From contig NZ_CP099734.1 of the NCBI RefSeq assembly GCF_025398175.1, forward strand, positions 434,001-498,000: a stretch of 64,000 bases of DNA, in the 5' to 3' direction. The DNA comes from Photobacterium sp. TY1-4. GTDB taxonomy: Bacteria > Pseudomonadota > Gammaproteobacteria > Enterobacterales > Vibrionaceae. Numbering within the stretch: the first letter of the stretch is position 1; each line of letters begins with the position of its first letter. The translations under genes were made by a program, and so were the position numbers. Shown piece by piece: positions 2,517-32,950 of this stretch. Under the pieces are notes generated by a model that had not been told where the DNA came from, ran no database searches, and worked only from the letters and a program-made list of their open reading frames with translations.

Positions 2517-3553
2517 TGAGCCATGCATTATCCGTTCGCAACCTCACTTGCCGCTATCAGGGACAGCCGGTGCTGCAGAACCTCTCGTTGCCGGTTGAAG
2601 ACAATGAAATTGTGTGTTTGCTGGGTGCCAGTGGTTGCGGTAAAACCACCTTGCTCAAAGCCATCGCCGGGTTGCTCCCGCTGGAGCAGGGGGAGATCCA
2701 TATTCACGGCCGGACCATTGCCGATCAGCACACCTGGCTGCCGCCGGAAAAGCGCAATATCGGGATGATTTTCCAGGACTACGCGCTGTTCCCGCACTTG
2801 ACGGTGGCGGAAAATATCGCATTTGGCCTGCAAGGCTGGGATAAGTCGCGAGTCGCCGGCAAAGTACAGGAAATGCTGACGCTGGTGCACCTGGATGGTC
2901 TGGGCGGCCGCTATCCGCACCAGCTGTCGGGCGGACAGCAGCAACGGGTGGCAATTGCCCGGGCGCTGGCCAGCGAGCCGGATCTGATTTTGCTTGATGA
3001 GCCGTTTTCCAACATTGATACCCAGGTCCGACATGGCCTGATCAAGGAAATCCGACGTATTTTCAAGGCCCAGGGCGTAACGGCGATTTTCGTGACCCAC
3101 AGTCGGGAAGAAGCATTTGCGTTTGCCGATCGGATGGCGGTGATGAACCAGGGGGTGATCGAACAATTCGGCACGGCGACCGAGCTCTATTACCGGCCGA
3201 GCAGCCGTTTTGTGGCGGAGTTCCTGGGGGCGGGCTCGTACCTGCCGGCAACGCTTCAGCACAACCATCTGATGACGCCGTTCGGTACCATGAACCTGCC
3301 GTCGGCCCAACCGGCAGTGGCGGAAACCAGCGTTGAGTGGTTGATCCGGCCCCAGAACCTCAAGGTTGCACCGGCCGAAAACGGGGAAGGGGTGATCACC
3401 GAGCAACTGTTTATGGGAGACAACTGTCGCTATACCGTAGACTTCCAGGGCTACAATCTGGTGGTGAATTCCAATCTGATCCTGCAAACCGGTCAGCGGG
3501 TAGATGTGGCCGTAGAGCCGCATGAGCCGGTGGTGTTTGCAGCGGCCAGTTGA
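2516..3553 (+). CDS. fbpC: Ferric iron ABC transporter ATP-binding protein FbpC
   Basis: A 345-residue ABC ATPase. Walker A GASGCGKTT lies near residues 37-45, the signature LSGGQQQRVAIARA near 140, and Walker B LILLDEP near 160. The C-terminal third resembles the TOBE-like regulatory domain of the FbpC/PotA group. Known role: powers Fe(III) import through FbpB. The ATG overlaps the fbpB stop (TGATG) and has a GGAGAAG Shine-Dalgarno inside the end of fbpB. The last base of the stop codon is also the first base of the inverted-end element that follows. Confidence 0.94.
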   Translation: MSHALSVRNLTCRYQGQPVLQNLSLPVEDNEIVCLLGASGCGKTTLLKAIAGLLPLEQGEIHIHGRTIADQHTWLPPEKRNIGMIFQDYALFPHLTVAENIAFGLQGWDKSRVAGKVQEMLTLVHLDGLGGRYPHQLSGGQQQRVAIARALASEPDLILLDEPFSNIDTQVRHGLIKEIRRIFKAQGVTAIFVTHSREEAFAFADRMAVMNQGVIEQFGTATELYYRPSSRFVAEFLGAGSYLPATLQHNHLMTPFGTMNLPSAQPAVAETSVEWLIRPQNLKVAPAENGEGVITEQLFMGDNCRYTVDFQGYNLVVNSNLILQTGQRVDVAVEPHEPVVFAAAS

Positions 3554-3714
3554 TACCAATCGTCGTCAATAAGGGGTCATCCTAGCTTGTTAAAACGCTC
3601 GATAACTGCGTTAGATTTTTTGTTTGTAGAATTACTACTTATCGAAAAGTTCCGCCTTGTGCTCAAGCATTTTTCCGTCGCTAGTTCTAAACACTGACTG
3701 AGTGTGATTGGTAT
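3553..3714. repeat. MITE-like 162-bp element with ATACCAATC / GATTGGTAT inverted ends
   Basis: A non-coding stretch bounded by perfect 9-bp inverted ends: ATACCAATC at 3553-3561 and GATTGGTAT at 3706-3714. It begins within the fbpC stop codon, so it is tightly appended to the operon. It encodes no transposase and no plausible protein. The layout fits the small nonautonomous elements scattered through Vibrionaceae genomes. No second copy was recognised in this window, so repetitiveness is from family knowledge, not seen here. Confidence 0.55.
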
Positions 3715-3738
3715 AATATCCGGCGTATCAACATAAAT

Positions 3739-3761
3739 CAGGCCAGCATTATGCTGGCCTG
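3739..3761. terminator. Perfect palindrome downstream of hapR, possible terminator
   Basis: An 11-bp inverted repeat around one base (CAGGCCAGCAT / ATGCTGGCCTG), between the inverted-end element and the hapR stop. T-richness on either side is modest, so a bidirectional terminator is plausible but not strong. Confidence 0.4.
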
Positions 3762-3811
3762 TTTGATCTTGCTTGTTTCCCAAGCGGGGAAATGGCGATC
3801 CCGACGGGAGA

Positions 3812-4417
3812 TTATTTCCCGAGCAGCGATGCGATGTGTGATCCGGCTTGCTGGCGCATCGCCTCCTGATCCGGACTGATGTTGCTCTGCAGGTACAGCA
3901 CGTAGCAAATACCATGCAGTTGCCAGGTCAGCTCTTCGGCGCTGCGTGTGTTCTCAACTTCCTGATTGTTGATGCCCTGGGCAAACATTTCGACGATCCG
4001 CTCGTGATTGACTTTGTTGCTGCCGACAAACTGCGGCCAGATTTCATCGCGTACCGAGGTGCTCCATTCATACCAGACTTTCAGCCAGTCCTGTTGCTCG
4101 ATGACGGCATCAATCAGGTGATCCGTGAAGCAGGTCAGGCGCGCGTAGAGCGGCCGGTTGTCCGCGCCCAGACAGTCGGTCAGGACTTGGCTGAAACGGT
4201 TTTCTACCTGGCTCAGTACTTGCTCGACCAGGGCTTCCCGGGTCGGGAAGTAGTTAAACACCGTCGCGACGGAGACATTGGCCATTTCGGCGATGTCTGC
4301 GTGGCCGGCCCGGCCAATCCCGCGTCGGGCGAAGACTTCCAAGGAAAAATCCAGCAGTTGCTGTTTTCTCTTTTCAGGTGAGAGACGAGTTCTGGTTTTT
4401 TTGACGATCGTATCCAT
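3812..4417 (-). CDS. hapR: Quorum-sensing master regulator, LuxR(harveyi)/HapR/LitR family (TetR fold)
   Basis: A 201-residue TetR-type DNA-binding protein. The N-terminus (RTRLSPEKRKQQLLDFSLEV, then FARRGIGRAGHADIAEMA and VSVATVFNYFPTRE) is nearly diagnostic for the V. harveyi LuxR / V. cholerae HapR / LitR group. Length matches (about 200 residues). Known role: activates or represses quorum-sensing targets at high cell density. The leader carries an octamer complementary to the conserved core of Qrr small RNAs, overlapping the Shine-Dalgarno. It is divergent from hpt, as in other Vibrionaceae. Which of the three names applies depends on the species; the family call is firm. Confidence 0.93.
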   Translation of the reverse strand: MDTIVKKTRTRLSPEKRKQQLLDFSLEVFARRGIGRAGHADIAEMANVSVATVFNYFPTREALVEQVLSQVENRFSQVLTDCLGADNRPLYARLTCFTDHLIDAVIEQQDWLKVWYEWSTSVRDEIWPQFVGSNKVNHERIVEMFAQGINNQEVENTRSAEELTWQLHGICYVLYLQSNISPDQEAMRQQAGSHIASLLGK

Positions 4418-4428
4418 TTCGCTTATTC

Positions 4429-4436
4429 CCTAGCCA
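4429..4436 (-). promoter_or_regulatory. Probable Qrr sRNA pairing site in the hapR leader
   Basis: The hapR mRNA leader reads UGGCUAGG here, 12-19 nt before the start codon and merging into the AGGGAA Shine-Dalgarno. It is the exact complement of CCUAGCCA, part of the conserved Qrr1-5 core. Pairing would block ribosome access at low cell density. Qrr genes are not in this window. Confidence 0.6.
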
Positions 4437-4644
4437 TGATCATGGTGCGTGAAGTTATATAGTTGTTTTAAATGATAACTTTACAATAGCGGGTAGTTGC
4501 AATCAAACTAGTTTTATACAAACTGTATCATATAATTGACAACTTTGAAAAATAACTATTGTTTGTGAGGGATGTTAGAATAGAGATCCGTTGAGAAAAG
4601 TTAGCCGACAGGCGGCCTTTGTCGCTGTCCTGATGGAGAAAAAA

Positions 4645-5178
4645 ATGAAACATACCGTGGAAGTGATGATTTCTGAGCAGGATGTTCAGGCGCGTATCCA
4701 AGAGCTGGGACAACAAATTACAGAACATTACAAGGATTCAGAAAACCTGGTGATGGTAGGTTTGCTGCGTGGTTCGTTCGTCTTTATGGCTGATCTGGCG
4801 CGTGCCATTCACCTGACACATGAAGTCGACTTCATGACCGCCTCAAGCTACGGCAATACCATGGAAAGCAACCGTGATGTCCGGATCCTCAAAGATCTCG
4901 ATGATGACATCAAAGGGAAAGACGTGCTGCTGGTGGAAGATATAATTGACACCGGGAATACCTTGAACAAGGTGCGCGAGATCCTGACCCTGCGTGAGCC
5001 GAACTCGATCCGTATCTGTACGCTGCTGGATAAGCCGGAGCGCCGTGAAGTCCACGTCGACGTGACGTGGGTTGGCTTTGCGATCCCGGACGAGTTCGTC
5101 GTCGGCGTGGGGATCGACTATGCACAGAAATACCGTCACCTGCCATACATCGGCAAAGTGATCCCGCTGGAAGGTTAA
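4645..5178 (+). CDS. hpt: Hypoxanthine phosphoribosyltransferase
   Basis: A 177-residue purine salvage enzyme: hypoxanthine (and more weakly guanine) plus PRPP gives IMP/GMP, in the cytoplasm. The PRPP-binding motif [14 protein letters not shown] lies near residues 97-110, and the C-terminal [14 protein letters not shown] is typical. The start at 4645 (MKHTVEVM) is chosen because it aligns with family members and has the GGAG of TGATGGAG upstream; in-frame starts at 4591 and 4633 would add non-conserved residues. A TTGACA box (4536-4541) lies upstream. Monocistronic, closed by a strong terminator. Confidence 0.95.
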
Positions 5179-5193
5179 TCGACCGGCCGGTGC

Positions 5194-5221
5194 AAAAAAG
5201 CGACCTTCCGGTCGCTTTTTT
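5194..5221 (+). terminator. Rho-independent terminator of hpt
   Basis: A 12-bp perfect stem AAAAAAGCGACC / GGTCGCTTTTTT with a TTCC loop, 15 bp after the hpt stop. A/T tracts on both sides suggest it also serves the convergent can gene. Confidence 0.9.
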
Positions 5222-5244
5222 CATGTCGGGGGCGGCTCGGTCAA

Positions 5245-5901
5245 TCAGACTTTGGCACCCGGCAGAATTTTGGCCATCGCGCTGGCGTACGCCTCTTCCA
5301 GGCCTTCGCGGCTGGTGGCGGCAACGCCCAGATCGCGCAGAATCCCGTCTTCGATCCCGTACACCCAGCCGTGGATCTTAATTTGCTGACCCCGCTCCCA
5401 GGCTTGTTGCATGATGGTCGAGTTCCCCAGGTTGTAGACTTGGGAGGCGACGTTGATTTCGCACAGCTTGTCGCTCCACTGCTCGCGCGGTAGGGCTTCC
5501 AGCTCGTTGCGGTGTTTCAGGTACAGATCGCGAATGTGCAGCAGCCAGTTGTTGATCAGGCCCAGCTGCGGGTTGTCAATCGAAGCGGCAACCCCGCCAC
5601 AGCCGTAGTGGCCACAGACGATGACGTGACGGACCTTGAGCACGTCCACGGCGTACTGGACCACGGAGAGGCAGTTGAGGTCGGTATGAATAACCTGGTT
5701 GGCAACATTGCGGTGCACGAATAGCTCGCCGGAGTCCAGGCCGGTCAGTCGCTCTGCCGGCACCCGGCTGTCGGCACAGCCGATCCACAGGTATTCCGGA
5801 TGTTGGGCTTTGGCCAGGTGGGAAAAAAACTCTGGCGTTTCTTCCTTAATGTTTTCTGACCAGGAAAGATTATTTGCAAAGAGCTGCTTAATATCTGCCA
5901 T
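5245..5901 (-). CDS. can: Beta-class carbonic anhydrase
   Basis: A 218-residue beta-carbonic anhydrase interconverting CO2 and bicarbonate in the cytoplasm, supplying bicarbonate for carboxylation. All zinc ligands are present: C42 and D44 in GCADSR, H98 and C101 in CGHYGCGG. R46 completes the Asp-Arg dyad. Length equals that of E. coli Can (220). It converges with hpt over a shared terminator and diverges from the ABC exporter genes, the same neighbourhood as in other Vibrionaceae and in E. coli (hpt-can-yadGH). Confidence 0.96.
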
Positions 5902-23031: not shown

Positions 23032-23367
23032 ACCGTCATCCTTGAATGTTGACTGTGTGATTAACCTTAGTCAATAACCTCCGAAGGAGCTAAGTCCGGC
23101 GTGTTCTCCTGTTTTAGGCTGGCGATTAAAATGCTTTTCGTTGCACATGCTGAGCGTGATTTCAGCTGTTTCCATGTTGTTCAAGGTTGATGGTTGAGAG
23201 AAGTTCCATGAAATACTGTGATCTGGATCTTGTTTAGAGTTATTATTTTAATGCGAATGAAACTGAGAATTGATCTCATTACATTGCGGGTGCATGATGT
23301 GCCGCAAAATTGCAGGGAAGGAAGTGCTTTGCCCTGTCTTGAGATTCTTTGACGTTGTGGGTGCATC
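23032..23367. other. Intergenic region between GST and the S9 peptidase gene
   Basis: A 336-bp divergent promoter region, AT-rich toward 23225-23285. It contains a Fur-like palindrome at 23264-23278. No RNA gene, repeat or coding frame is supported. Confidence 0.5.
23264..23278. promoter_or_regulatory. Weak Fur-like box upstream of the peptidase/receptor operon
   Basis: TGAGAATTGATCTCA matches 10 of 14 defined positions of the 7-1-7 Fur consensus TGATAATNATTATCA and is itself nearly palindromic. It lies about 90 bp upstream of the first gene of an operon containing a TonB-dependent receptor. Suggestive only. Confidence 0.35.
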
Positions 23368-25422
23368 ATGAGACGCAGTTGGGTTGGCATTATTTGTTGT
23401 GTATTGAGCGCTCTGGTTGCTCCGGCTGCTTTGGCGGGCAACGCGACAAATCCAAACCCGGCCGACCCGTCTTATCAGTGGCTGCGGGATGACACCCGCC
23501 AGTCAGCGGTCGTGTTGAATTTCCTGCAGCAGGAAAATCAGCGCACGGAGTCACAGTTAGCGGCTCAACAACCGCTGGAGCAAACCTTGCTGTCTGAGTG
23601 GCAGTCGCGCAGCCGACAATCAACTGCGCAGCCGTGGCGGCTGCAGGGTGAGTTTAATTATCGCGTCGATGCATCGGGCCAGCAGCTGATCCGGCAAAAT
23701 GCCCAAACCCAGGCTGAAGCTGTGGTGCTGGATCTGAGCACGCGTCGCGAGGGCGCGGCTTACTATTCGTTGGGCAACTGGCAGATCAGTCCGGACCATC
23801 GCTGGGTTGCACTGGCCGAAGATCGCCGGGGCGATCGCAACTATCAAATTTCTGTGATAGCGCTGGACTCGGGCAAAGCGCAGCCGGCGGTACTGCCGGG
23901 CGTTGCCACGGATCTGGTGTGGAGCAACGACAGCCAGAGTCTGTATGTGGTCGGCAATGAGGCGAATACCTATCGTCCTCACCGGGTACTGCGATGGATG
24001 TGGTCAACTGACAGCACGCAAGAGCTGTTCCGGGAAGCCGATCTGGCTTGGATGGTGTCGATTTATCCGTCGACGTCAGGCCAGTATGTGCTGATCCAGA
24101 GTAACAATCACAACAGCAGTGAACAACATCTGGTGGACCGCAATACCGGTCGCGGGCCGGGCATGATCCGGGCGCGGGAACCCGGGGTGGAGTATTACGC
24201 CGATGTCCGTCATGACACTCTGTATCTGTCGAGCAACCTCGACGGCGACTTTGCGCTCTATCAGGCCGTGCTTACCGAACCGAACCAGCCCTGGCAGGCC
24301 ATCTGGCAGACACCGCCGACGCAGCATTTGAAAAACTGGCTGCTGTATCCGCAGCACATTGTATTGGAAGTGACCCGACAGCAGCACAGCGATCTGGTCG
24401 TGCTGAACTATCAGGGGAAGACGCTGTACCAGCAAACCATCACGCCGTCCGGTGGGGTTGCCTGGTTGTCCGGTAACAGTAGTCGCTATGGCCAGTCGGT
24501 CCGGATCCGCCGGATGTCGATGGCGCAGCCGCCGCAGTGGCTGGCGCTGGATCTCGAAACGTTCGAGATGAGCGTACTGGGCGAAGACCGCTATCAGAAT
24601 ATTGAGCCGCAGCTGTATCGCAGCGAGCAGATCCAGGTCCTGCATGATGGTGTCTCGGTGCCGGTGTCCCTGGTATACCGGCCGGATCAACTGACGGCAC
24701 ATTCCCCGGTGGTGCTGTATGGCTACGGCGCTTACGGCACACCGATGCGACCTTACTTCATGTCTCAGGTACTGAGCCTGCTTGATCGCGGCATGATATA
24801 CGCTATTGCCCACGTGCGCGGTGGCGGCTATCTCGGTCCGGCCTGGTACGAGCAGGGCAAAGGGATGAACAAACCTAACGCCTTCGCGGACTACCTCGCC
24901 GTGGCGCAAACCCTGAAGCAATACCGGGGCGGAAAAAATCGTCCGTTGCTGGCTATCGGCGGCAGTGCCGGCGGCACGCTGGTGGCGACGGCGCTCAATC
25001 AACAGCCGGCGCTGTTTAGTGCCGCAGTACTGCAAGTCCCATTCGTTGATGTGGTCGCGACCATGTCTGATCCGACGCTGCCGCTGACCCGCCAGGAATA
25101 TGCCGAATGGGGCGATCCGAGCGATCCGGCGCAGCGTGCCGTGATGGCCGCTTATAGCCCGGTTGATAATATTGCCCGCCAAGCTTATCCGCCGATGCTG
25201 GTGACGGCCGGACTATACGACAGCCAGGTGCCTTACTGGGAGCCGGCAAAGTGGGTGGCCAAAGTGCGTGACCTGAGTGTCGACACCGGCCCCTATCTGT
25301 TGCAGACCGATATGCAGGGCGGCCATCGTCAGGATGCTCGCCAGGCCCAGCAGCAGCAGGCCCGGGAGTATGCTTTCTTACTCCGCCAGGCTGCTTCGCT
25401 GCGCCATACCGATACCCGATAA
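23368..25422 (+). CDS. Exported S9 family peptidase (oligopeptidase B-like)
   Basis: A 684-residue prolyl-oligopeptidase fold enzyme: a ~400-residue beta-propeller, then an alpha/beta hydrolase domain with the triad S533 (GGSAGG), D618 (GLYDSQ) and H653 (GGHRQ). GYGAYG forms the usual oxyanion region. Oligopeptidase B cuts short peptides after Lys/Arg and is normally cytoplasmic. This one has a clear signal peptide (RRSWVGIICCVLSALVAPAA, cleavage near ALAG), so it should act in the periplasm or outside. First gene of a five-gene operon; a Fur-like box lies upstream. Specificity is inferred. Confidence 0.88.
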   Translation: MRRSWVGIICCVLSALVAPAALAGNATNPNPADPSYQWLRDDTRQSAVVLNFLQQENQRTESQLAAQQPLEQTLLSEWQSRSRQSTAQPWRLQGEFNYRVDASGQQLIRQNAQTQAEAVVLDLSTRREGAAYYSLGNWQISPDHRWVALAEDRRGDRNYQISVIALDSGKAQPAVLPGVATDLVWSNDSQSLYVVGNEANTYRPHRVLRWMWSTDSTQELFREADLAWMVSIYPSTSGQYVLIQSNNHNSSEQHLVDRNTGRGPGMIRAREPGVEYYADVRHDTLYLSSNLDGDFALYQAVLTEPNQPWQAIWQTPPTQHLKNWLLYPQHIVLEVTRQQHSDLVVLNYQGKTLYQQTITPSGGVAWLSGNSSRYGQSVRIRRMSMAQPPQWLALDLETFEMSVLGEDRYQNIEPQLYRSEQIQVLHDGVSVPVSLVYRPDQLTAHSPVVLYGYGAYGTPMRPYFMSQVLSLLDRGMIYAIAHVRGGGYLGPAWYEQGKGMNKPNAFADYLAVAQTLKQYRGGKNRPLLAIGGSAGGTLVATALNQQPALFSAAVLQVPFVDVVATMSDPTLPLTRQEYAEWGDPSDPAQRAVMAAYSPVDNIARQAYPPMLVTAGLYDSQVPYWEPAKWVAKVRDLSVDTGPYLLQTDMQGGHRQDARQAQQQQAREYAFLLRQAASLRHTDTR

Positions 25423-25518
25423 CCCGAATTTGTGATGATCTTGCCGGCTGCCAGGCCGCCGGCAGGGATCCGTCATGCTGAAATTTGTCTTTCATCCCAT
25501 TGTTCCGGAGAACCGACC

Positions 25519-27675
25519 ATGCAATTAAAGCCCGTGCCATTGGCTTTTTTGTCTTTATTTGGCCTGAGCAGCCACAGCGCTGTTGCCGAAGATGTGACCG
25601 CGATTTCGACCATTGTTGTCACAGCCAACAAGATAGAGAAGCCGCTGTCTGAGACCAATGGCTCGGTGGCGGTGATCACCAGTGAAGCGATGGCCCGGGA
25701 AGGCGCAACTGAGCTGTACGATGCCCTCAATCATGAGCCGGGGATCAGCGTTTCCGGCGGGGCCGGGCGGCCACAGAATATTACGATCCGCGGGATGAGC
25801 GGTAACCGGGTTGCGGTGATCAAAGACGGCGTGCGCGTGGCGGACGGGTATGGCGCCGATGATCTCAATGATGTGGCCGGTCATAACAGTTTCGACCTGG
25901 GGGATGTTAAACAGGTTGAAGTCGTCAAAGGCGCCGGCTCGTCCCTTTATGGTTCGGGTGCGGTCGGTGGGGTGGTGGTGCTGACCTCGAAAGCGCCAAG
26001 CGATTATCTGGGGCAACGCGACAGTTACTGGGGCATTGAAGGCGGCTATGCCGGGATCAGTGACAAATACCGGACGACCTTGACGACGGCGCAGCGCTTC
26101 GGCGATGCCGATCACCTGCTGCGCCTGAGTTACTGGGCAGGGAATGAGTCGAAAAACCATGACGAATCACTTTACCTGCGTGATGTGGACGGCTTTCAGG
26201 CGGCACTGACCAGCGAATGGTTTGTCAGCCCGCAGTGGATGCTGAAGGGCAAACTCAGCTATTACCAGCAGGAGGCGTTGCGCGAGGAAGGCCAGCCACC
26301 GATCCAGCAGGATGGCAAAGGTTGGATGGCAAAAGGTTTTCATGAGCAAGGCCAGGTCACGACCCTGGAATCCCGCGTCGGTGCGGCATGGGAAGGGGCT
26401 GGGATGTTGGCCGATCAGGCCGATTTCAACCTGTATTACCGCCTGACAGAAAATGACAGTGATTTACGGGTCGCAATGGTGCGGGTACAGGAATCTCTAT
26501 TGTTTAAGCGTCGTCAGATTGACAGCCGCCAGTTCCGCGATGCGCTGATGGGCGGCTCTGCCGAGATGCAAAAGCAGGTCTCCCTGGGAAGTGCCAACCA
26601 TACGTTCGCCTGGGGGATGACACTGGAGTCGACCCGGCATGAGCGCCCGGTGGAAAAGCAGATCATCGACTGGAACGGTGAGCAGCGCACCGAATCGGCG
26701 CCGTTTGCCGAAGCAACCACGGAACGTTTTGGTGTGTATGTGCATGACGATATTGCTTGGGGCCGCTGGAATCTGACGCCCGGATTGCGGGTTGACTACC
26801 AGCGCCTGAGTCCGGGCGGCGCAGATTCGATCGGCACGGAAGCGTTGGGCAGTTATACGCTGGAAACTGCCGATCACAGTGAAGTCTCGCCAAGCCTGTC
26901 GCTGGCTTACCAGTGGACCGATGCGCTCAATACCTATCTGAGCTATACCCACGGCTTCCGGGCGCCATCCTATGCCAAGGCTTATGGTTTCGTGCCGCAC
27001 CTGAACGGCGATTTGGGCAGCTTTGTGATCCTGCCGAACCCGGAGCTGGATGCAGAAACCAGTGACAATGTCGAGCTGGGCAGCAAATACGATGATGGCC
27101 GACTGGCGGTCTATGGTGCCCTGTTTTACTCCGTCTTTGATGACTTCATTGATGAACAAGTGGTGGGCTGGGACGATGCCAACCAACATGCCATGGTGCA
27201 ATACCAGAACCTGAACGGGGTCAAAACCTACGGCGCCGAGCTGACGGTCCGCTATGCGTTGACCGACTCGCTGGCGATCAGCAGCAAGCTGGGGATTGTC
27301 GACGGTGAAGATGAGCAGGGTGAGGAAATTCGCGCGCTCACGCCGCTGGAAGGCAACACCCAACTGGACTACAAGGCCGAGGAGTGGGACGGCTTTGTTC
27401 GCGCCAACTATGCCGGGGCGATGGATCGGGTACCGACCTGCTACGGCGATTTGGGGATGGAACAGACCTGTGCCGAAACATCCGGCTGGCTGACGGTGGA
27501 TCTGGGCGCGGGCTATTTCGTGACACCTGATTTTCGCATCAATTTAGCGGTTCATAACCTACTGGATCGGGACTACACCCGTTACCAGGATGTCGCCGGC
27601 GTTGCCGCCAAGGATACGACCTTCTCTAGCCAGCCGGGCCGTTACTTCAATATCAACGCCAAATACAGCTTCTAG
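25519..27675 (+). CDS. TonB-dependent outer-membrane receptor, haem/haemoglobin type
   Basis: The start at 25519 (MQLKPVPLAF) follows the CGGAGAA Shine-Dalgarno and opens a signal peptide ending SAVAED; upstream frame from 25432 is non-conserved. The protein has about 718 residues: TonB box region (TIVVTANKIEKP), plug domain with ITIRGMSGNRVAVIKDGVR and EVVKGAGSSLYGSGAVGGVV, then a 22-strand barrel ending in aromatic-terminated KYSF. FRAPSYAKAYGF, a His (VPHL) and NPELDAETSDNVELG resemble the FRAP/NPNL boxes with intervening His of haem receptors. Haem specificity is an inference; other ligands remain possible. Confidence 0.85.
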   Translation: MQLKPVPLAFLSLFGLSSHSAVAEDVTAISTIVVTANKIEKPLSETNGSVAVITSEAMAREGATELYDALNHEPGISVSGGAGRPQNITIRGMSGNRVAVIKDGVRVADGYGADDLNDVAGHNSFDLGDVKQVEVVKGAGSSLYGSGAVGGVVVLTSKAPSDYLGQRDSYWGIEGGYAGISDKYRTTLTTAQRFGDADHLLRLSYWAGNESKNHDESLYLRDVDGFQAALTSEWFVSPQWMLKGKLSYYQQEALREEGQPPIQQDGKGWMAKGFHEQGQVTTLESRVGAAWEGAGMLADQADFNLYYRLTENDSDLRVAMVRVQESLLFKRRQIDSRQFRDALMGGSAEMQKQVSLGSANHTFAWGMTLESTRHERPVEKQIIDWNGEQRTESAPFAEATTERFGVYVHDDIAWGRWNLTPGLRVDYQRLSPGGADSIGTEALGSYTLETADHSEVSPSLSLAYQWTDALNTYLSYTHGFRAPSYAKAYGFVPHLNGDLGSFVILPNPELDAETSDNVELGSKYDDGRLAVYGALFYSVFDDFIDEQVVGWDDANQHAMVQYQNLNGVKTYGAELTVRYALTDSLAISSKLGIVDGEDEQGEEIRALTPLEGNTQLDYKAEEWDGFVRANYAGAMDRVPTCYGDLGMEQTCAETSGWLTVDLGAGYFVTPDFRINLAVHNLLDRDYTRYQDVAGVAAKDTTFSSQPGRYFNINAKYSF

Positions 27676-27683
27676 GGGGCGTC

Positions 27684-30008
27684 ATGAACCGATTGAATCT
27701 GGCGGCTTCTCTGGTCGCTGCCGTTGTCGCTGCGCCGTCCGTTGCGGCGCCGCACCTGGATTATCCTCAGCAGATGCCGGCGATTGGCTCTGTGGCAGAA
27801 GCGAAAGCTTATGTGCAGTCCCGCTATCCGCATACCGAGACTTTGGTCCACCGCTATACCCGTCATAGCTTGCTGGGGACCCACTATAACTTCGTGCAGC
27901 AGAATACAGACGGCCAGCCTTGTGAAGGCGCGGTTGTGGTGACCACGGATCAGGATGGCGTGCTGCATAGGGTGTTTCATACGCTGGTGGACAATCCGGC
28001 GTCCTGCTCCCTGAATCAGCCGCTGCCGCCGCGTGCTCACCGGCTGGCGGTGCCGCCTGCCGGTGAGGTTGTTCAAACTCAGATGCAGGTATTCGATCCG
28101 GATCCACGTACCGCCGTCGGCTGGTCCATTGAAGGTGAGCACAGCAATGTCGCTGAAATCACCATTCCGGCTGAAGCTTACCAGCGTGTTTCCGGAGTTG
28201 ATGTCACCCGCAGTGACGGCCAGCTCTATCTGGCCAATTCGCGGGTGGTCGCGGTGGACTTTACCGAGATGCATGCGCTGGATCTGGGGCCGCAGCAGGG
28301 GGTGGTCACCGTACAGGCCGGGGACGGGTTTGATTTTACCCGCCAGGAGTCTGCGTTTCGCGATGTGAACGCCTTCTATCACTTAGATCATGCATTGCAG
28401 TATCTCGAACAATTGGGGTTTGTCGCCGATAAAGCCCTGTTCACTGTCCCGCTGAGAATTGATGCCCAGGGTCAAAGCACCAACAACTCCACCTACCTGA
28501 GCGATGTCGGGATGCTGGCGATGGGCGTCGGCGGGGTACCGGATAGTGAAGATGCCGATGTCGTGCTGCATGAGTTTGGCCATGCGATCAACGACAAGCT
28601 GGTGCCGGACTGGAAGGGGGGCGACAGCGAGGCCATCGGCGAAGGATTCGGTGACTACTGGGCCGGGGCATACAGCTTCTGGGTGCAGCGCGATCGCAGC
28701 ACTCCCTTTGAACTGGATGTGTTTGCCAACTGGGACGGGGCTGCCGGGGCGAATAAGTCGATGCGCTCGCTCAATGACACCGAAGCCCGCTATTACCCGG
28801 AGATGGACTACCGGGCTCATGTCTCTGTTTACGGGACGCTGAGCGATCAGTTGTGGTCGACGCCGTTGTTCCAGACTCTGAAGCAGGGCGTGGCGATTTA
28901 TGGCAACGGCGCATTTGACGAATTCAACCGGATCGTGCTGGAAGGGATGGCCGGGATGGGTTTCGGCATGAAAATGTCTGATCTGGCGCGCTCAACCGTT
29001 GATGCCGCGCAGCGCCTGTATCCGAATAAGGATTATGCCCGCCTGTTAGCCGCACGATTTAAGCAGCATGGGATTTTGCGTGATGTTGTGGTGCTGGCCC
29101 AGCATGATTCGGCAGTGACGCTCCCGACAGTGCAATCTGAAGCCCAGGCCGCAACTCTGACAGCAACCCTGGTCAACACCACCGATCAGCCATTGGAGAG
29201 TTACCGGGCCGAGTTGGCAATCCCAGCTGTCGGCTGGCACCGGGTGATCAGTCAGGAATCCATTGCCGCAGGCGCGCAACAGTCCATTCAAGCAGAATTG
29301 CCGCAGCCTTCGACCCTGCAGTGCGGGGAGCGCTTCGAGATGACGGCTGGCGTTGAAGTCCGCCATGATGCCAGCCAACGTGCGCAGTACAGCCAGCAGC
29401 AACTGACCTTCACCTACGGTCAGCCGGTGCTCTCACTGCCGCTGCAACAATCAGCCCGTCCTCTGGCTGATGCCCGACAAATCGATGAGAGCAGAATAGT
29501 TCTGGGTGAATCCTTGTCCGCGTTTAAAGCCGGGGATGCAAGCGGAGTCGTGGACGATGACTTTGCGGTGCACCTGTCTCTGAGCCATCCGCGGTTTGCT
29601 GAGCTGAAAGTGGTGCTACGGGCGCCTTCCGGTGCTGGTGTGAGCCTGATGGATTACCAGGATCATCCGCTATCTGACTTTAGCCATACCCTGACCCTGG
29701 CCAATACGCCCAAGCTGGCGACATTGCGCGGAGAGCCGCTGGCGGGGAACTGGATCCTTGAGATCACTGACCGGGTTGTCGGGTCGAGTGGTCAGCTACA
29801 TCGTTGGGGGATCGGCCATGTGACCGGTTATCAGTGCGGCGAACACCAGGATACGCCGGTAACACCGACCACGAGTCAACCCGATGGTTCGGCGGGAGAT
29901 TCAGGATCATCCGGTGGCGCTGCCGGATGGCTCAGCCTGTTGGCCGGTTTGGTCATCGGCGTCTTCAGACGCAAATCAAATCACATTAATACAATAGAGA
30001 TAGCCTGA
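27684..30008 (+). CDS. GlyGly-CTERM M36-like zinc metallopeptidase with P domain
   Basis: 774 residues. Signal peptide (cleavage near SVAAP), a long propeptide-like region, then the zinc site H296-E-F-G-H300 with E320 in GEGFGDYW, as in M36 (fungalysin-like) peptidases. A P/proprotein-convertase-type beta domain lies at about residues 610-710. The C-terminus has a GlyGly-CTERM tripartite signal: Gly/Ser-rich GSSGG, hydrophobic WLSLLAGLVIGVF, then RRK. Such tails are cut by rhombosortase and accompany type II secretion to the cell surface. Start 8 bp after the receptor stop with an AGGGGG Shine-Dalgarno. The protein substrate is unknown. Confidence 0.87.
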   Translation: MNRLNLAASLVAAVVAAPSVAAPHLDYPQQMPAIGSVAEAKAYVQSRYPHTETLVHRYTRHSLLGTHYNFVQQNTDGQPCEGAVVVTTDQDGVLHRVFHTLVDNPASCSLNQPLPPRAHRLAVPPAGEVVQTQMQVFDPDPRTAVGWSIEGEHSNVAEITIPAEAYQRVSGVDVTRSDGQLYLANSRVVAVDFTEMHALDLGPQQGVVTVQAGDGFDFTRQESAFRDVNAFYHLDHALQYLEQLGFVADKALFTVPLRIDAQGQSTNNSTYLSDVGMLAMGVGGVPDSEDADVVLHEFGHAINDKLVPDWKGGDSEAIGEGFGDYWAGAYSFWVQRDRSTPFELDVFANWDGAAGANKSMRSLNDTEARYYPEMDYRAHVSVYGTLSDQLWSTPLFQTLKQGVAIYGNGAFDEFNRIVLEGMAGMGFGMKMSDLARSTVDAAQRLYPNKDYARLLAARFKQHGILRDVVVLAQHDSAVTLPTVQSEAQAATLTATLVNTTDQPLESYRAELAIPAVGWHRVISQESIAAGAQQSIQAELPQPSTLQCGERFEMTAGVEVRHDASQRAQYSQQQLTFTYGQPVLSLPLQQSARPLADARQIDESRIVLGESLSAFKAGDASGVVDDDFAVHLSLSHPRFAELKVVLRAPSGAGVSLMDYQDHPLSDFSHTLTLANTPKLATLRGEPLAGNWILEITDRVVGSSGQLHRWGIGHVTGYQCGEHQDTPVTPTTSQPDGSAGDSGSSGGAAGWLSLLAGLVIGVFRRKSNHINTIEIA

Positions 30009-31450
30009 TGAGAAAGTTTCAACTTGCGATGCTGCCGGTTGCGCTGACGGTTGCCCTGAGCGGCTGTAACAGTTCCAGCTCGGATTCGGCAACAAATGAT
30101 GCCAGCTTTTTAAACTATGACGTTTCCGGTGAAGTGACTTCAACGGCGGTGCAGGTCCCGTATACGGTTTGCGCCGATATCAACCGTGACTGGGCGTGTG
30201 GCAGCAATGAGCCTGCGCTCAATGCCGAGCAATATCGTTTTACGCTCTCCAGTCCGGATATCCGGGTGACCACATCTCCTTTGGTGGTGAAGGCAAGCCT
30301 GTCCGCCGTGACCAAATCCGGCGCGAATGCTGAAGTGCTTCTGGCAGCGCCGGCTGCGATGGATAACGCCCATACCCTGATCAACGGTATTACAACGTTG
30401 GTGGTCGGGGAGATGCTGATCGGCTCCAGCCGGGAAATTGCCGTAGCGACGGTGACGGCAAACCTGAAGGCACTGGGGTTGGCACTGCCAGCGGATATTA
30501 TGCACGACAGCAACCAGGCTGCTCTGGCTAAAATGGATTTGCAAATACTTCAGACCCTGACGGCACTGGCTGGAAGCGACCTGTCTTACGGGCAAGTGGT
30601 GGCCGGGATGGCCCGGGGCCTCAAGCTTTACGGTCAGGATATTCTTGACGGTACGCTGGAAAAAAGCCAACTGGAACATATGCAGGCGCTTGGCAAAGTC
30701 GCCTATAAGCCACTCAACGATACCGGTCTGACGCAACACCTGAACCTGGCTGCCGGCGGGATGGATACCCAAGCTGATCCGGATGCACCGGGTCAGGATG
30801 CCAGCTACGGCCTGGATGTGACGGACGGCGGATTCAAGCTAACCAAACTGGATGCGACCGGGACGCCGTTGGCTGAGGACAGCACAACCTGGGACTGTGT
30901 GAAAGATGAGCGCACGGGGTTGATCTGGGAAGTGAAGGCGGATGATCCGGCATCTTACCGCGATAAACACCGCCTGTTTGCCTATGAAAGCGAGACGCTC
31001 AAGCCTCATGCCGATGATCTGGCCCTGGCGTCCTGCCAGACCGATGGCGTTGGTGTTTGTACCACTCTGGAATATGCCAACAAGCTCAATACGTCCGGCT
31101 ATTGCGGCAAAACCAACTGGCGGGTCCCGACGATGAACGAGCAGTTTGACCTGCTGGACTTTGGGGAAAGCGCCACAGACGAGGCCGGAAATACCTATGG
31201 TCTGCCGGCGAAGTACTTTAACGATCAATACATAGGCCATCCGGATTTGGCCTACGGCTATTACTGGTCATCGACTTTGCTGCGGACTGACCCGGGTTAT
31301 ACCTCCGGCCAAGCGATTGCTCACCTGACCCAAATGACCGTCAAGGACGGGACCGGGTTGGGGGAAATCACGGCTTATTACGCGCTATGTGCGCAAGGGC
31401 AGGCGTGTGATTCTCCAAACGCATTAACACTCCGTATGGTTGCAGAATAA
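30008..31450 (+). CDS. Lipoprotein with C-terminal DUF1566 (Lcl-type) domain
   Basis: 480 residues. A lipoprotein signal ends LSGC with the acylated Cys at position 20, followed by a Ser-rich linker, consistent with outer-membrane anchoring. The middle (about residues 35-260) is unrecognised, mostly helical. The C-terminal ~180 residues carry the DUF1566/Lcl pattern: WDCVKDERTGLIWEVK, NWRVPTMNEQFDLLD and YYWSST. Some DUF1566 proteins (Lcl of Legionella) bind glycans; the function here is unknown. The ATG overlaps the metallopeptidase stop (TGATGA), so the two are co-translated. Confidence 0.8.
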   Translation: MRKFQLAMLPVALTVALSGCNSSSSDSATNDASFLNYDVSGEVTSTAVQVPYTVCADINRDWACGSNEPALNAEQYRFTLSSPDIRVTTSPLVVKASLSAVTKSGANAEVLLAAPAAMDNAHTLINGITTLVVGEMLIGSSREIAVATVTANLKALGLALPADIMHDSNQAALAKMDLQILQTLTALAGSDLSYGQVVAGMARGLKLYGQDILDGTLEKSQLEHMQALGKVAYKPLNDTGLTQHLNLAAGGMDTQADPDAPGQDASYGLDVTDGGFKLTKLDATGTPLAEDSTTWDCVKDERTGLIWEVKADDPASYRDKHRLFAYESETLKPHADDLALASCQTDGVGVCTTLEYANKLNTSGYCGKTNWRVPTMNEQFDLLDFGESATDEAGNTYGLPAKYFNDQYIGHPDLAYGYYWSSTLLRTDPGYTSGQAIAHLTQMTVKDGTGLGEITAYYALCAQGQACDSPNALTLRMVAE

Positions 31451-31460
31451 GGGATCTAAG

Positions 31461-32021
31461 ATGTTGAAAAAAGCACTACTTGCCGTGACTTGCTCTGTGT
31501 TGATGGCCGGCAATGCCGCCGCAAGCCTACAGAGTTGTTACAACGATTTGCCAAACAGCGCCCCGGATATTCGCTTTCAGGATAATGGCAACGGGACGGT
31601 GACTGATCTGCAGACCAAGCTGATCTGGCGTCGATGCCTGCTGGGCATGACCTGGAATACGACCACACAGCAGTGTGATGGTGAGCCAAGCGTGTATAGC
31701 TGGAAGCAGGCGCTGTTTCAAACAGCGCTGAACTATCAGGATACCGCTGACGGCGGCAAGTCCTGGCGGGTGCCGAATATCAAAGAGCTGGTGAGTCTGC
31801 GTGAAGTCGCCTGCATCTCTCCGGCGTTGAACCTCAAAGCGTTTCCTGGCTTGTTTCGGGAGGACGCGGATAAGTGGGAGATGAACAGAACGGTCTGGTC
31901 GGCAACGCCTCATGCACAGAGCCAGACGATTCTGACCTTTGGTCTGAATGACGGCATGACAACGCATTTTGGTCCACAAGACGTTGAGCTGGGGGTGTTG
32001 CTGGTCAAAGACGGCCAGTGA
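31461..32021 (+). CDS. Small exported DUF1566 domain protein
   Basis: 186 residues: signal peptide MLKKALLAVTCSVLMAGNAA and one DUF1566 domain (DNGNGTVTDLQTKLIWRRC, SWRVPNIKELVSL, VWSATPH). Cysteines at several points suggest disulphides. The start at 31461 has AGGGATCTA upstream; an in-frame ATG at 31440 would put a polar leader before the signal peptide. It starts 10 bp after the lipoprotein stop and repeats its C-terminal domain type, so the pair may act together. It ends the operon before a strong terminator. Function unknown. Confidence 0.8.
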   Translation: MLKKALLAVTCSVLMAGNAAASLQSCYNDLPNSAPDIRFQDNGNGTVTDLQTKLIWRRCLLGMTWNTTTQQCDGEPSVYSWKQALFQTALNYQDTADGGKSWRVPNIKELVSLREVACISPALNLKAFPGLFREDADKWEMNRTVWSATPHAQSQTILTFGLNDGMTTHFGPQDVELGVLLVKDGQ

Positions 32022-32049
32022 TCACGCCGTAGTTTGAAACCGCACTGAG

Positions 32050-32079
32050 AATACCGCAGCACGACTGCGGTATTTTTTT
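32050..32079 (+). terminator. Terminator of the peptidase/receptor operon
   Basis: Stem AATACCGCAG / CTGCGGTATT with a 5-nt loop and a seven-T tail, 28 bp after the last stop. Confidence 0.9.
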
Positions 32080-32177: not shown

Positions 32178-32253
32178 TGGCTCCCCCTGCTGGACTTGAA
32201 CCAGCGACATACGGATTAACAGTCCGCCGTTCTACCGACTGAACTAAGGGGGA
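32178..32253 (-). tRNA. tRNA-Asn (GTT)
   Basis: 76 nt with encoded CCA; last gene of array 2 in transcription order. Same sequence as the array 1 copies. Confidence 0.97.
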
Positions 32254-32300
32254 ATTGTTTGTTACTGTGTTGCTATCGTGATGAGCACCACATTGTAAAA

Positions 32301-32376
32301 TGGTGCCTCGAGGCGGAATCGAACCACCGACACGAGGATTTTCAATCCTCTGCTCTACCGACTGAGCTATCGAGGC
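32301..32376 (-). tRNA. tRNA-Phe (GAA)
   Basis: 76 nt with encoded CCA, anticodon GAA. Array 2. Confidence 0.97.
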
Positions 32377-32379
32377 AAA

Positions 32380-32455
<76 letters not shown>

Positions 32456-32464
32456 ACACAAATT

Positions 32465-32540
32465 TGGCTCCCCCTGCTGGACTTGAACCAGCGACATACG
32501 GATTAACAGTCCGCCGTTCTACCGACTGAACTAAGGGGGA
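32465..32540 (-). tRNA. tRNA-Asn (GTT)
   Basis: 76 nt, 287 bp from the previous tRNA-Asn. Array 2. Confidence 0.97.
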
Positions 32541-32587
32541 ATTGTTTGTTACTGTGTTGCTATCGTGATGAGCACCACATTGTAAAA

Positions 32588-32663
32588 TGGTGCCTCGAGG
32601 CGGAATCGAACCACCGACACGAGGATTTTCAATCCTCTGCTCTACCGACTGAGCTATCGAGGC
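32588..32663 (-). tRNA. tRNA-Phe (GAA)
   Basis: 76 nt with encoded CCA. Array 2. Confidence 0.97.
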
Positions 32664-32666
32664 AAA

Positions 32667-32742
<76 letters not shown>

Positions 32743-32751
32743 ACACAAATT

Positions 32752-32827
32752 TGGCTCCCCCTGCTGGACTTGAACCAGCGACATACGGATTAACAGTCCG
32801 CCGTTCTACCGACTGAACTAAGGGGGA
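32752..32827 (-). tRNA. tRNA-Asn (GTT)
   Basis: 76 nt, again exactly 287 bp from the previous copy. Array 2. Confidence 0.97.
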
Positions 32828-32874
32828 ATTGTTTGTTACTGTGTTGCTATCGTGATGAGCACCACATTGTAAAA

Positions 32875-32950
32875 TGGTGCCTCGAGGCGGAATCGAACCA
32901 CCGACACGAGGATTTTCAATCCTCTGCTCTACCGACTGAGCTATCGAGGC
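32875..32950 (-). tRNA. tRNA-Phe (GAA)
   Basis: 76 nt with encoded CCA; first gene of array 2 after its promoter. Confidence 0.97.

Follow-up and report, generated by a model that had tools for sequence, protein, structure and literature searches.

The five genes at positions 23368–32021 of the Photobacterium sp. TY1-4 window (the whole 64-kb stretch of DNA that was analysed) raise the question of whether two peptidases, a TonB-dependent receptor and two DUF1566 proteins form one system, and what such a system would do. The original prediction had described five genes forming a single unit that ends in a terminator. All five open reading frames were confirmed on the plus strand, each with a match to its named family. 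The gap between the S9 peptidase gene and the receptor gene is 96 bp, and the following gaps measure 8, −1 and 10 bp. With all five genes in place the locus reads as one operon, which is located on C1, the larger contig of the genome (3.58 Mb). The terminator was found as a hairpin with a 13-bp stem leading into a T run (32047–32077, −17.4 kcal/mol). A simple terminator scan did not list this hairpin; it returned 8 terminators against 9.9 expected. A sigma-70 scan gave one match, on the opposite strand, against 6.1 expected.

The first gene (23368–25422) encodes a ptrB-like serine peptidase of 684 aa related to prolyl oligopeptidase and oligopeptidase B, with matches to PF00326 (186.6 bits) and PF02897 (S9_N, 145.9 bits). 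The catalytic Ser, Asp and His are intact in 59/59 complete loci. The protein scores 455 bits against the oligopeptidase B equivalog NF007511, for which the cut-off is 1313 bits. By its sequence it is an S9 family member with an intact triad that falls outside this equivalog, and the signal peptide recognized by eye predicts its export. The second gene (25519–27675) encodes a receptor of 718 aa with TonB plug and barrel domains. The start codon ATG 25519 is preferred over GTG 25432 on the basis of start conservation and of a signal peptide seen by eye. The product exceeds the cut-offs of both TIGR01785 (388.6 bits versus 316.85) and TIGR01786, and its best PDB profile match is PhuR with 279 bits, the next one reaching 102 bits. 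His494, which lies between the FRAP-like and the PNxxL (NPNL-like) motifs, is present in 59/59 complete loci. The FRAP-like motif is kept to a high degree (Arg481 in 51/59, Ala482 in 53/59 and Pro483 in 58/59 loci), and Pro506, Asn507 and Leu510 of the NPNL-like motif each occur in 59/59. These family scores, the nearest solved structure and the conserved histidine bear out the prediction of a haem-type receptor. One further receptor of the same genome exceeds the TIGR01785 cut-off. The orthologue from P. marinum (P0054), where the five-gene locus is apparently also found, carries the NCBI name HutR, and the receptor is placed here in the HutR/HvtA clade.

The third gene (27684–30008) encodes a metallopeptidase of 774 aa with a P-domain (PF01483, 49.4 bits). 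Its match to the M36 family PF02128 (20.2 bits) stays under the Pfam cut-off of 23.3; the HExxH motif and the downstream Glu of an M36-like gluzincin are found in 59/59 complete loci. A GlyGly-CTERM sorting signal is encoded at 29910–29975 (TIGR03501, 21.0 bits versus a cut-off of 15.5), and the genome also encodes a rhombosortase (TIGR03902, 169.1 bits, cut-off 84). A protease with a surface-sorting tail, as had been predicted, is thus supported. An Arcobacter-type metagenome bin (L103) encodes at 3495–5759 a version of this peptidase with a lipobox-like N-terminus and without the GlyGly tail, in an operon that is otherwise complete apart from an S9 gene truncated by the contig end. The last two genes, LCL1 (30008–31450, 480 aa) and LCL2 (31461–32021, 186 aa), encode proteins with the PF07603 domain (Lcl_C, formerly DUF1566), which score 50.6 and 66.1 bits, respectively, against a cut-off of 34.9. 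LCL1 is a lipoprotein whose lipobox Cys20 is present in 59/59 complete loci. For LCL2 the start ATG 31461 is preferred over TTG 31440, and the protein is predicted to be exported, as judged from a signal peptide recognized by eye.

Co-occurrence across the Vibrionaceae had been set beforehand as a check on the gene set. In a sample of 150 Vibrionaceae genomes, the peptidase query (E ≤ 1e-20) matched 39, Photobacterium sp. TY1-4 included. Among the 38 other neighbourhoods, 36 show the identical order S9–receptor–peptidase–LCL1–LCL2, and the remaining two are cut by a contig end on the S9 side and retain the other four genes. The five-gene set is therefore not a product of chance, and the prediction of a single gene unit gains support. 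A few genes in these loci are broken by a stop or a frame change and yet are still in place. The receptor profile matched 41 of the same 150 genomes; 39 of these are the peptidase genomes, and the two extra matches are far weaker (1.8e-103 and 1.1e-101 versus ≤1.4e-122 in all 39). LCL1 was found in 40 genomes, namely the same 39 and one with a weak match (3.6e-38) within a long ORF. The co-occurrence is thus strict: the peptidase, the receptor clade and LCL1 are found in the same 39/150 genomes. As a separate observation, in V. metoecus (L093, 4831–8914) the S9 gene is split over three ORFs and the receptor ORF is without its usual C-terminal end, which may reflect decay or a sequencing error.

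The locus is not restricted to this family. A wider scan with the peptidase profile, covering contigs with a match to either of two short patterns, yielded 79 distinct loci from the best 80 of 322 relatives. The peptidase, LCL1 and LCL2 are encoded together in 53/79 of these loci, and 52 also contain the receptor gene; in the one without it (L111) the contig begins inside the peptidase gene. In the other 26 loci among these best 80 of 322, the stretch examined contains nothing of the set but the peptidase domain. Vibrio, Aliivibrio, Salinivibrio, Psychromonas, Ferrimonas, Moritella and Psychrobium are represented among the members from the best 80 of 322 relatives, as are two Arcobacter-type metagenome bins (L103 and L111), for which mis-binning is possible. 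The S9 gene, whole or partial, is present in 44 of the 53 loci from the best 80 of 322. Six of the nine loci without it lie at contig ends; the three with more than 6 kb of upstream sequence, two from Shewanella (L125, L127) and one from Pseudoalteromonas (L128), lack S9 and have kept the other four genes. In an order-level sample of 394 genomes, LCL1 (E ≤ 1e-40) was found in 27; a strong receptor match (E ≤ 1e-190) is present in 25 of these and nowhere else, and in the remaining two (G241, G255) the receptor gene is partial and lies at a contig end. Twenty of the 394 genomes gave weaker receptor matches only (E 1e-143 to 1e-111), 19 of them without LCL1. Haem-type receptors outside the HutR/HvtA clade therefore occur without LCL1. 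Seven of the fifteen LCL1 loci assigned to Aeromonas were read, and all seven show the order receptor–S9–peptidase–LCL1–LCL2, so the members stay together despite a change of order. Over 59 loci, the correlation between the distance matrices of the individual genes reaches r values of 0.85–0.96, which shared species history explains equally well. In a locus with the same genus code as Moritella L176 (L177, 10034–12606), the LCL1 gene is interrupted, and a transposase-like ORF, recognized by eye, lies in the gap.

The original prediction knew of no described system with this set of genes, yet a corresponding operon has been published. RT-PCR in V. vulnificus showed that ptrB and hvtA form one operon with three hypothetical ORFs (VV2_1550 to VV2_1552); this operon was described as similar to the hutR operon of V. 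cholerae, and hvtA was found to be regulated by iron and Fur (PMC6813434). The Photobacterium locus resembles this operon, as published, in having five genes with the S9/ptrB gene first, the haem receptor gene second and three further ORFs, in Fur control, which is predicted for the Photobacterium locus, and in the FRAP, NPNL and His features of the receptor. It differs in that the last three ORFs are left hypothetical in the V. vulnificus paper, whereas in Photobacterium they encode a peptidase and two Lcl_C proteins. Also, hvtA resides on the second chromosome, whereas the Photobacterium operon is on the larger contig. Co-transcription was demonstrated in V. vulnificus only (PMC6813434). From their number and position in the published description, we infer that VV2_1550–1552 are the orthologues of the peptidase, LCL1 and LCL2 genes.

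A similar correspondence is seen in V. cholerae, again by published description. There hutR is VCA0064 (PMC6855506), and the next locus tag, VCA0065, is a putative metalloprotease with a GlyGly-CTERM tail (PMC6219818); unlike the Photobacterium gene, it figures in print as a rhombosortase substrate (PMC6219818, PMC13393428). The word hutR has no occurrences in these two rhombosortase papers. In the text at hand, HvtA/HutR is treated as a stand-alone haem receptor and VCA0065 as a stand-alone rhombosortase substrate. Within the open-licence literature, we found no paper that joins a haem receptor, a VCA0065-type peptidase and Lcl_C proteins, and none with two of VCA0063, VCA0064 and VCA0065. 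The accessible parts of PMC3237569, PMC11389362 and PMC3120857 hold nothing further on the five-gene operon. A homology search with the LCL1 of V. metoecus returned five proteins, none with V. cholerae or V. vulnificus in its name. A new element is the identification of the last three operon genes: one encodes a metallopeptidase with a GlyGly-CTERM tail, and the other two encode Lcl_C/DUF1566 proteins. Three ORFs without an assigned function thereby gain a testable role, and the DUF1566 pair is placed in iron nutrition.

A roughly palindromic Fur-box-like site, ACTGAGAATTGATCTCATT, is located at 23262–23280 on the plus strand, 87 bp upstream of the S9 start. It matches a Vibrio Fur consensus at 13 of 16 informative positions and is the sole place in the 64-kb window to score at least 13/16. 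The upstream regions of the S9 gene were collected from 61 loci, with a few repeats among them. All 57 distinct regions, our own included, contain a site with at least 13/16, and 35 of them reach 14, while such sites occur in 1/150 operon-internal upstream regions and in 1.25% of mononucleotide shuffles. With the published Fur consensus and up to three mismatches, no site was found in the 64-kb window. The window site matches this consensus at 12/19 positions, which is not significant when taken alone (p 0.42, 60 dinucleotide shuffles). Over the whole upstream set, the mean best identity to the published consensus is 13.8 versus 11.8 in shuffles, and 40/61 regions reach 14 versus 3.7% of shuffles. 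The Fur site printed for V. vulnificus (PMC6813434) appears by eye to be the same motif. Sequence conservation across the set, judged mainly with the Vibrio consensus and mononucleotide shuffles, thus points to a putative Fur operator upstream of the ptrB-like gene, of which the window copy is weak on its own. There is good support for iron-controlled haem import, and for the relatives both haem import and Fur-type control are already in print. We put at roughly 70% the probability that the locus is orthologous to the hutR/hvtA operon, taking its identity, the iron control and the haem import together.

The ligand of the receptor was considered separately. In both S9-less loci examined (L125 from Shewanella and L128 from Pseudoalteromonas), a gene for a CobN-type chelatase adjoins the receptor gene; in L125, DUF2149 and ExbB-like genes are also found beside it. 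The best solved relative of the Shewanella chelatase is HmuS (408 bits), described as a haem dechelatase (PMC12583661). We take this neighbour as only a hint towards haem, because CobN nearly ties with HmuS (399 bits) and NCBIfam assigns both chelatases to CobN. Both proteins exceed the cut-off of NF004644 and could equally be cobaltochelatases, which would agree with the import of a non-haem ligand such as a metal-binding peptide or a different porphyrin. Such a ligand is improbable in view of the haem family scores, PhuR as the nearest solved structure and the hemin uptake mediated by HvtA (PMC6813434). The HmuYRSTUV system of the Bacteroidota shares with the present locus the haem receptor and, in the two S9-less loci examined, the CobN/HmuS-type neighbour; it differs from loci of this type in that in the latter the protease and Lcl_C genes come after the receptor gene.

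The best explanation is that the operon encodes a surface system for haem uptake and protein degradation under Fur control. We propose that iron starvation would lift Fur from the site at 23262–23280, leading to a single transcript. The rhombosortase would process the GlyGly-CTERM metallopeptidase for release to the surface or into the medium, while the lipoprotein LCL1 and LCL2 would hold a protein or a glycan-bearing substrate near the receptor. Cleavage of the held substrate by the metallopeptidase would free haem, which the receptor would import via TonB, and the exported S9 enzyme would trim the peptides so produced. Substrate capture, the action of the proteases on haem proteins, the feeding of the receptor and the place and role of the S9 enzyme are inferred in this scheme, and the step in which a substrate is held and cut and its haem passed on has a little less than an even chance of being correct.

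It was also considered that the receptor alone accounts for haem uptake, while the proteases and the DUF1566 proteins constitute a separate surface unit for protein foraging or adhesion that shares with it only the iron control. HvtA mediates the uptake of hemin and not of haemoglobin: V. vulnificus with HvtA and without HupA grew when given hemin but not when given haemoglobin (PMC6813434). In the accessible text, the deletions named for the strains of this growth test are limited to hupA, a tonB gene and a siderophore gene. The result weakens the part of the original prediction in which surface proteases open haemoglobin, and it fits a separate unit. HvtA is described as the minor haem receptor (PMC8706444). 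In the reports on V. cholerae, VCA0065 peptides were found in the supernatant and not in membrane fractions (PMC6219818, PMC13393428), and the Lcl_C domain has been described in an adhesin (PMC11162425), both of which would also agree with such a unit. Without the rhombosortase RssP, VCA0065 in the supernatant drops 5.4-fold in one study (PMC6219818) and 2.5-fold, not significantly, in another (PMC13393428); the gene is also described as RpoH-regulated (PMC6219818). Against a separate unit, the receptor clade, the peptidase and LCL1 were never found apart in the 150 Vibrionaceae genomes, and the genes are together after the rearrangement in Aeromonas and in the absence of S9 in Shewanella and Pseudoalteromonas. 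The genes for the receptor, the peptidase and the two Lcl_C proteins have stayed closely linked even where another family has rearranged them, which suggests that these proteins work together, and we consider a separate unit unlikely, although it deserves serious attention.

The two DUF1566 proteins were predicted to bind substrate. Binding of something fits the C-type-lectin-like fold modelled for LCL2, the closest match of which is the C-terminal domain of Legionella Lcl (8q4e). Legionella Lcl is an adhesin carrying a DUF1566 domain (PMC11162425), and the proteins share the Pfam family. They differ in that LCL2 has four cysteines invariant across 59 loci and both LCL1 and LCL2 are acidic (median net charge over 59 loci −34 and −4, respectively), whereas the Legionella domain has no disulfides and binds glycosaminoglycans through a basic surface (PMC11162425). 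Glycosaminoglycan binding through a basic surface is not favoured for the present pair, given the acidic charge of both proteins. A role as haemophore or haem-binding co-receptor, comparable to that of HmuY or HpuA, was also weighed, since a lipoprotein gene is linked to a TonB receptor gene and, elsewhere in the genome, a single protein combines Lcl_C and di-haem peroxidase domains. In a scan of LCL1 and LCL2 for conserved H, M, C, Y, W and R, no His was conserved in at least 80% of the 59 loci; apart from the N-terminal Met, the positions above this threshold are Cys, Trp, Arg and Tyr. Because the fold of LCL2 is C-type-lectin-like, with the glycan binder Lcl as the closest match, and neither protein has a well conserved His, a haemophore role is quite unlikely. 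Our best guess is that LCL1 and LCL2 capture a protein or glycan. Of the features of receptor–lipoprotein pairs of the HpuAB and SusCD type, the present operon shows the genetic linkage. A bolder version of the capture scheme would be a new kind of self-contained surface machine for haem uptake. In it, LCL1 as a C-type-lectin-like lipoprotein and its secreted partner LCL2 would take the place of HpuA or SusD, catch haem-bearing proteins or glycoprotein particles and hold them directly over the TonB receptor, within reach of the rhombosortase-sorted metallopeptidase; we regard this version as speculative and rather doubtful.

Further genes of related families were observed in the same genome. 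A TonB receptor gene on another contig (C2:1048000-1062000, 4492–9390) is flanked by two GlyGly-CTERM genes, whose products of 504 and 436 aa have no Pfam match at E 0.01; this arrangement is perhaps a parallel system of a receptor and surface proteins. In a second region of that contig (C2:1726000-1738000, 4269–8548), two adjoining genes encode Lcl_C proteins, and the second is the one that also carries the CCP_MauG di-haem peroxidase domain. Just past the terminator of the five-gene operon, the minus strand carries eight tRNA genes at 32178–32950, arranged in tandem in the order Asn-Phe-Thr.
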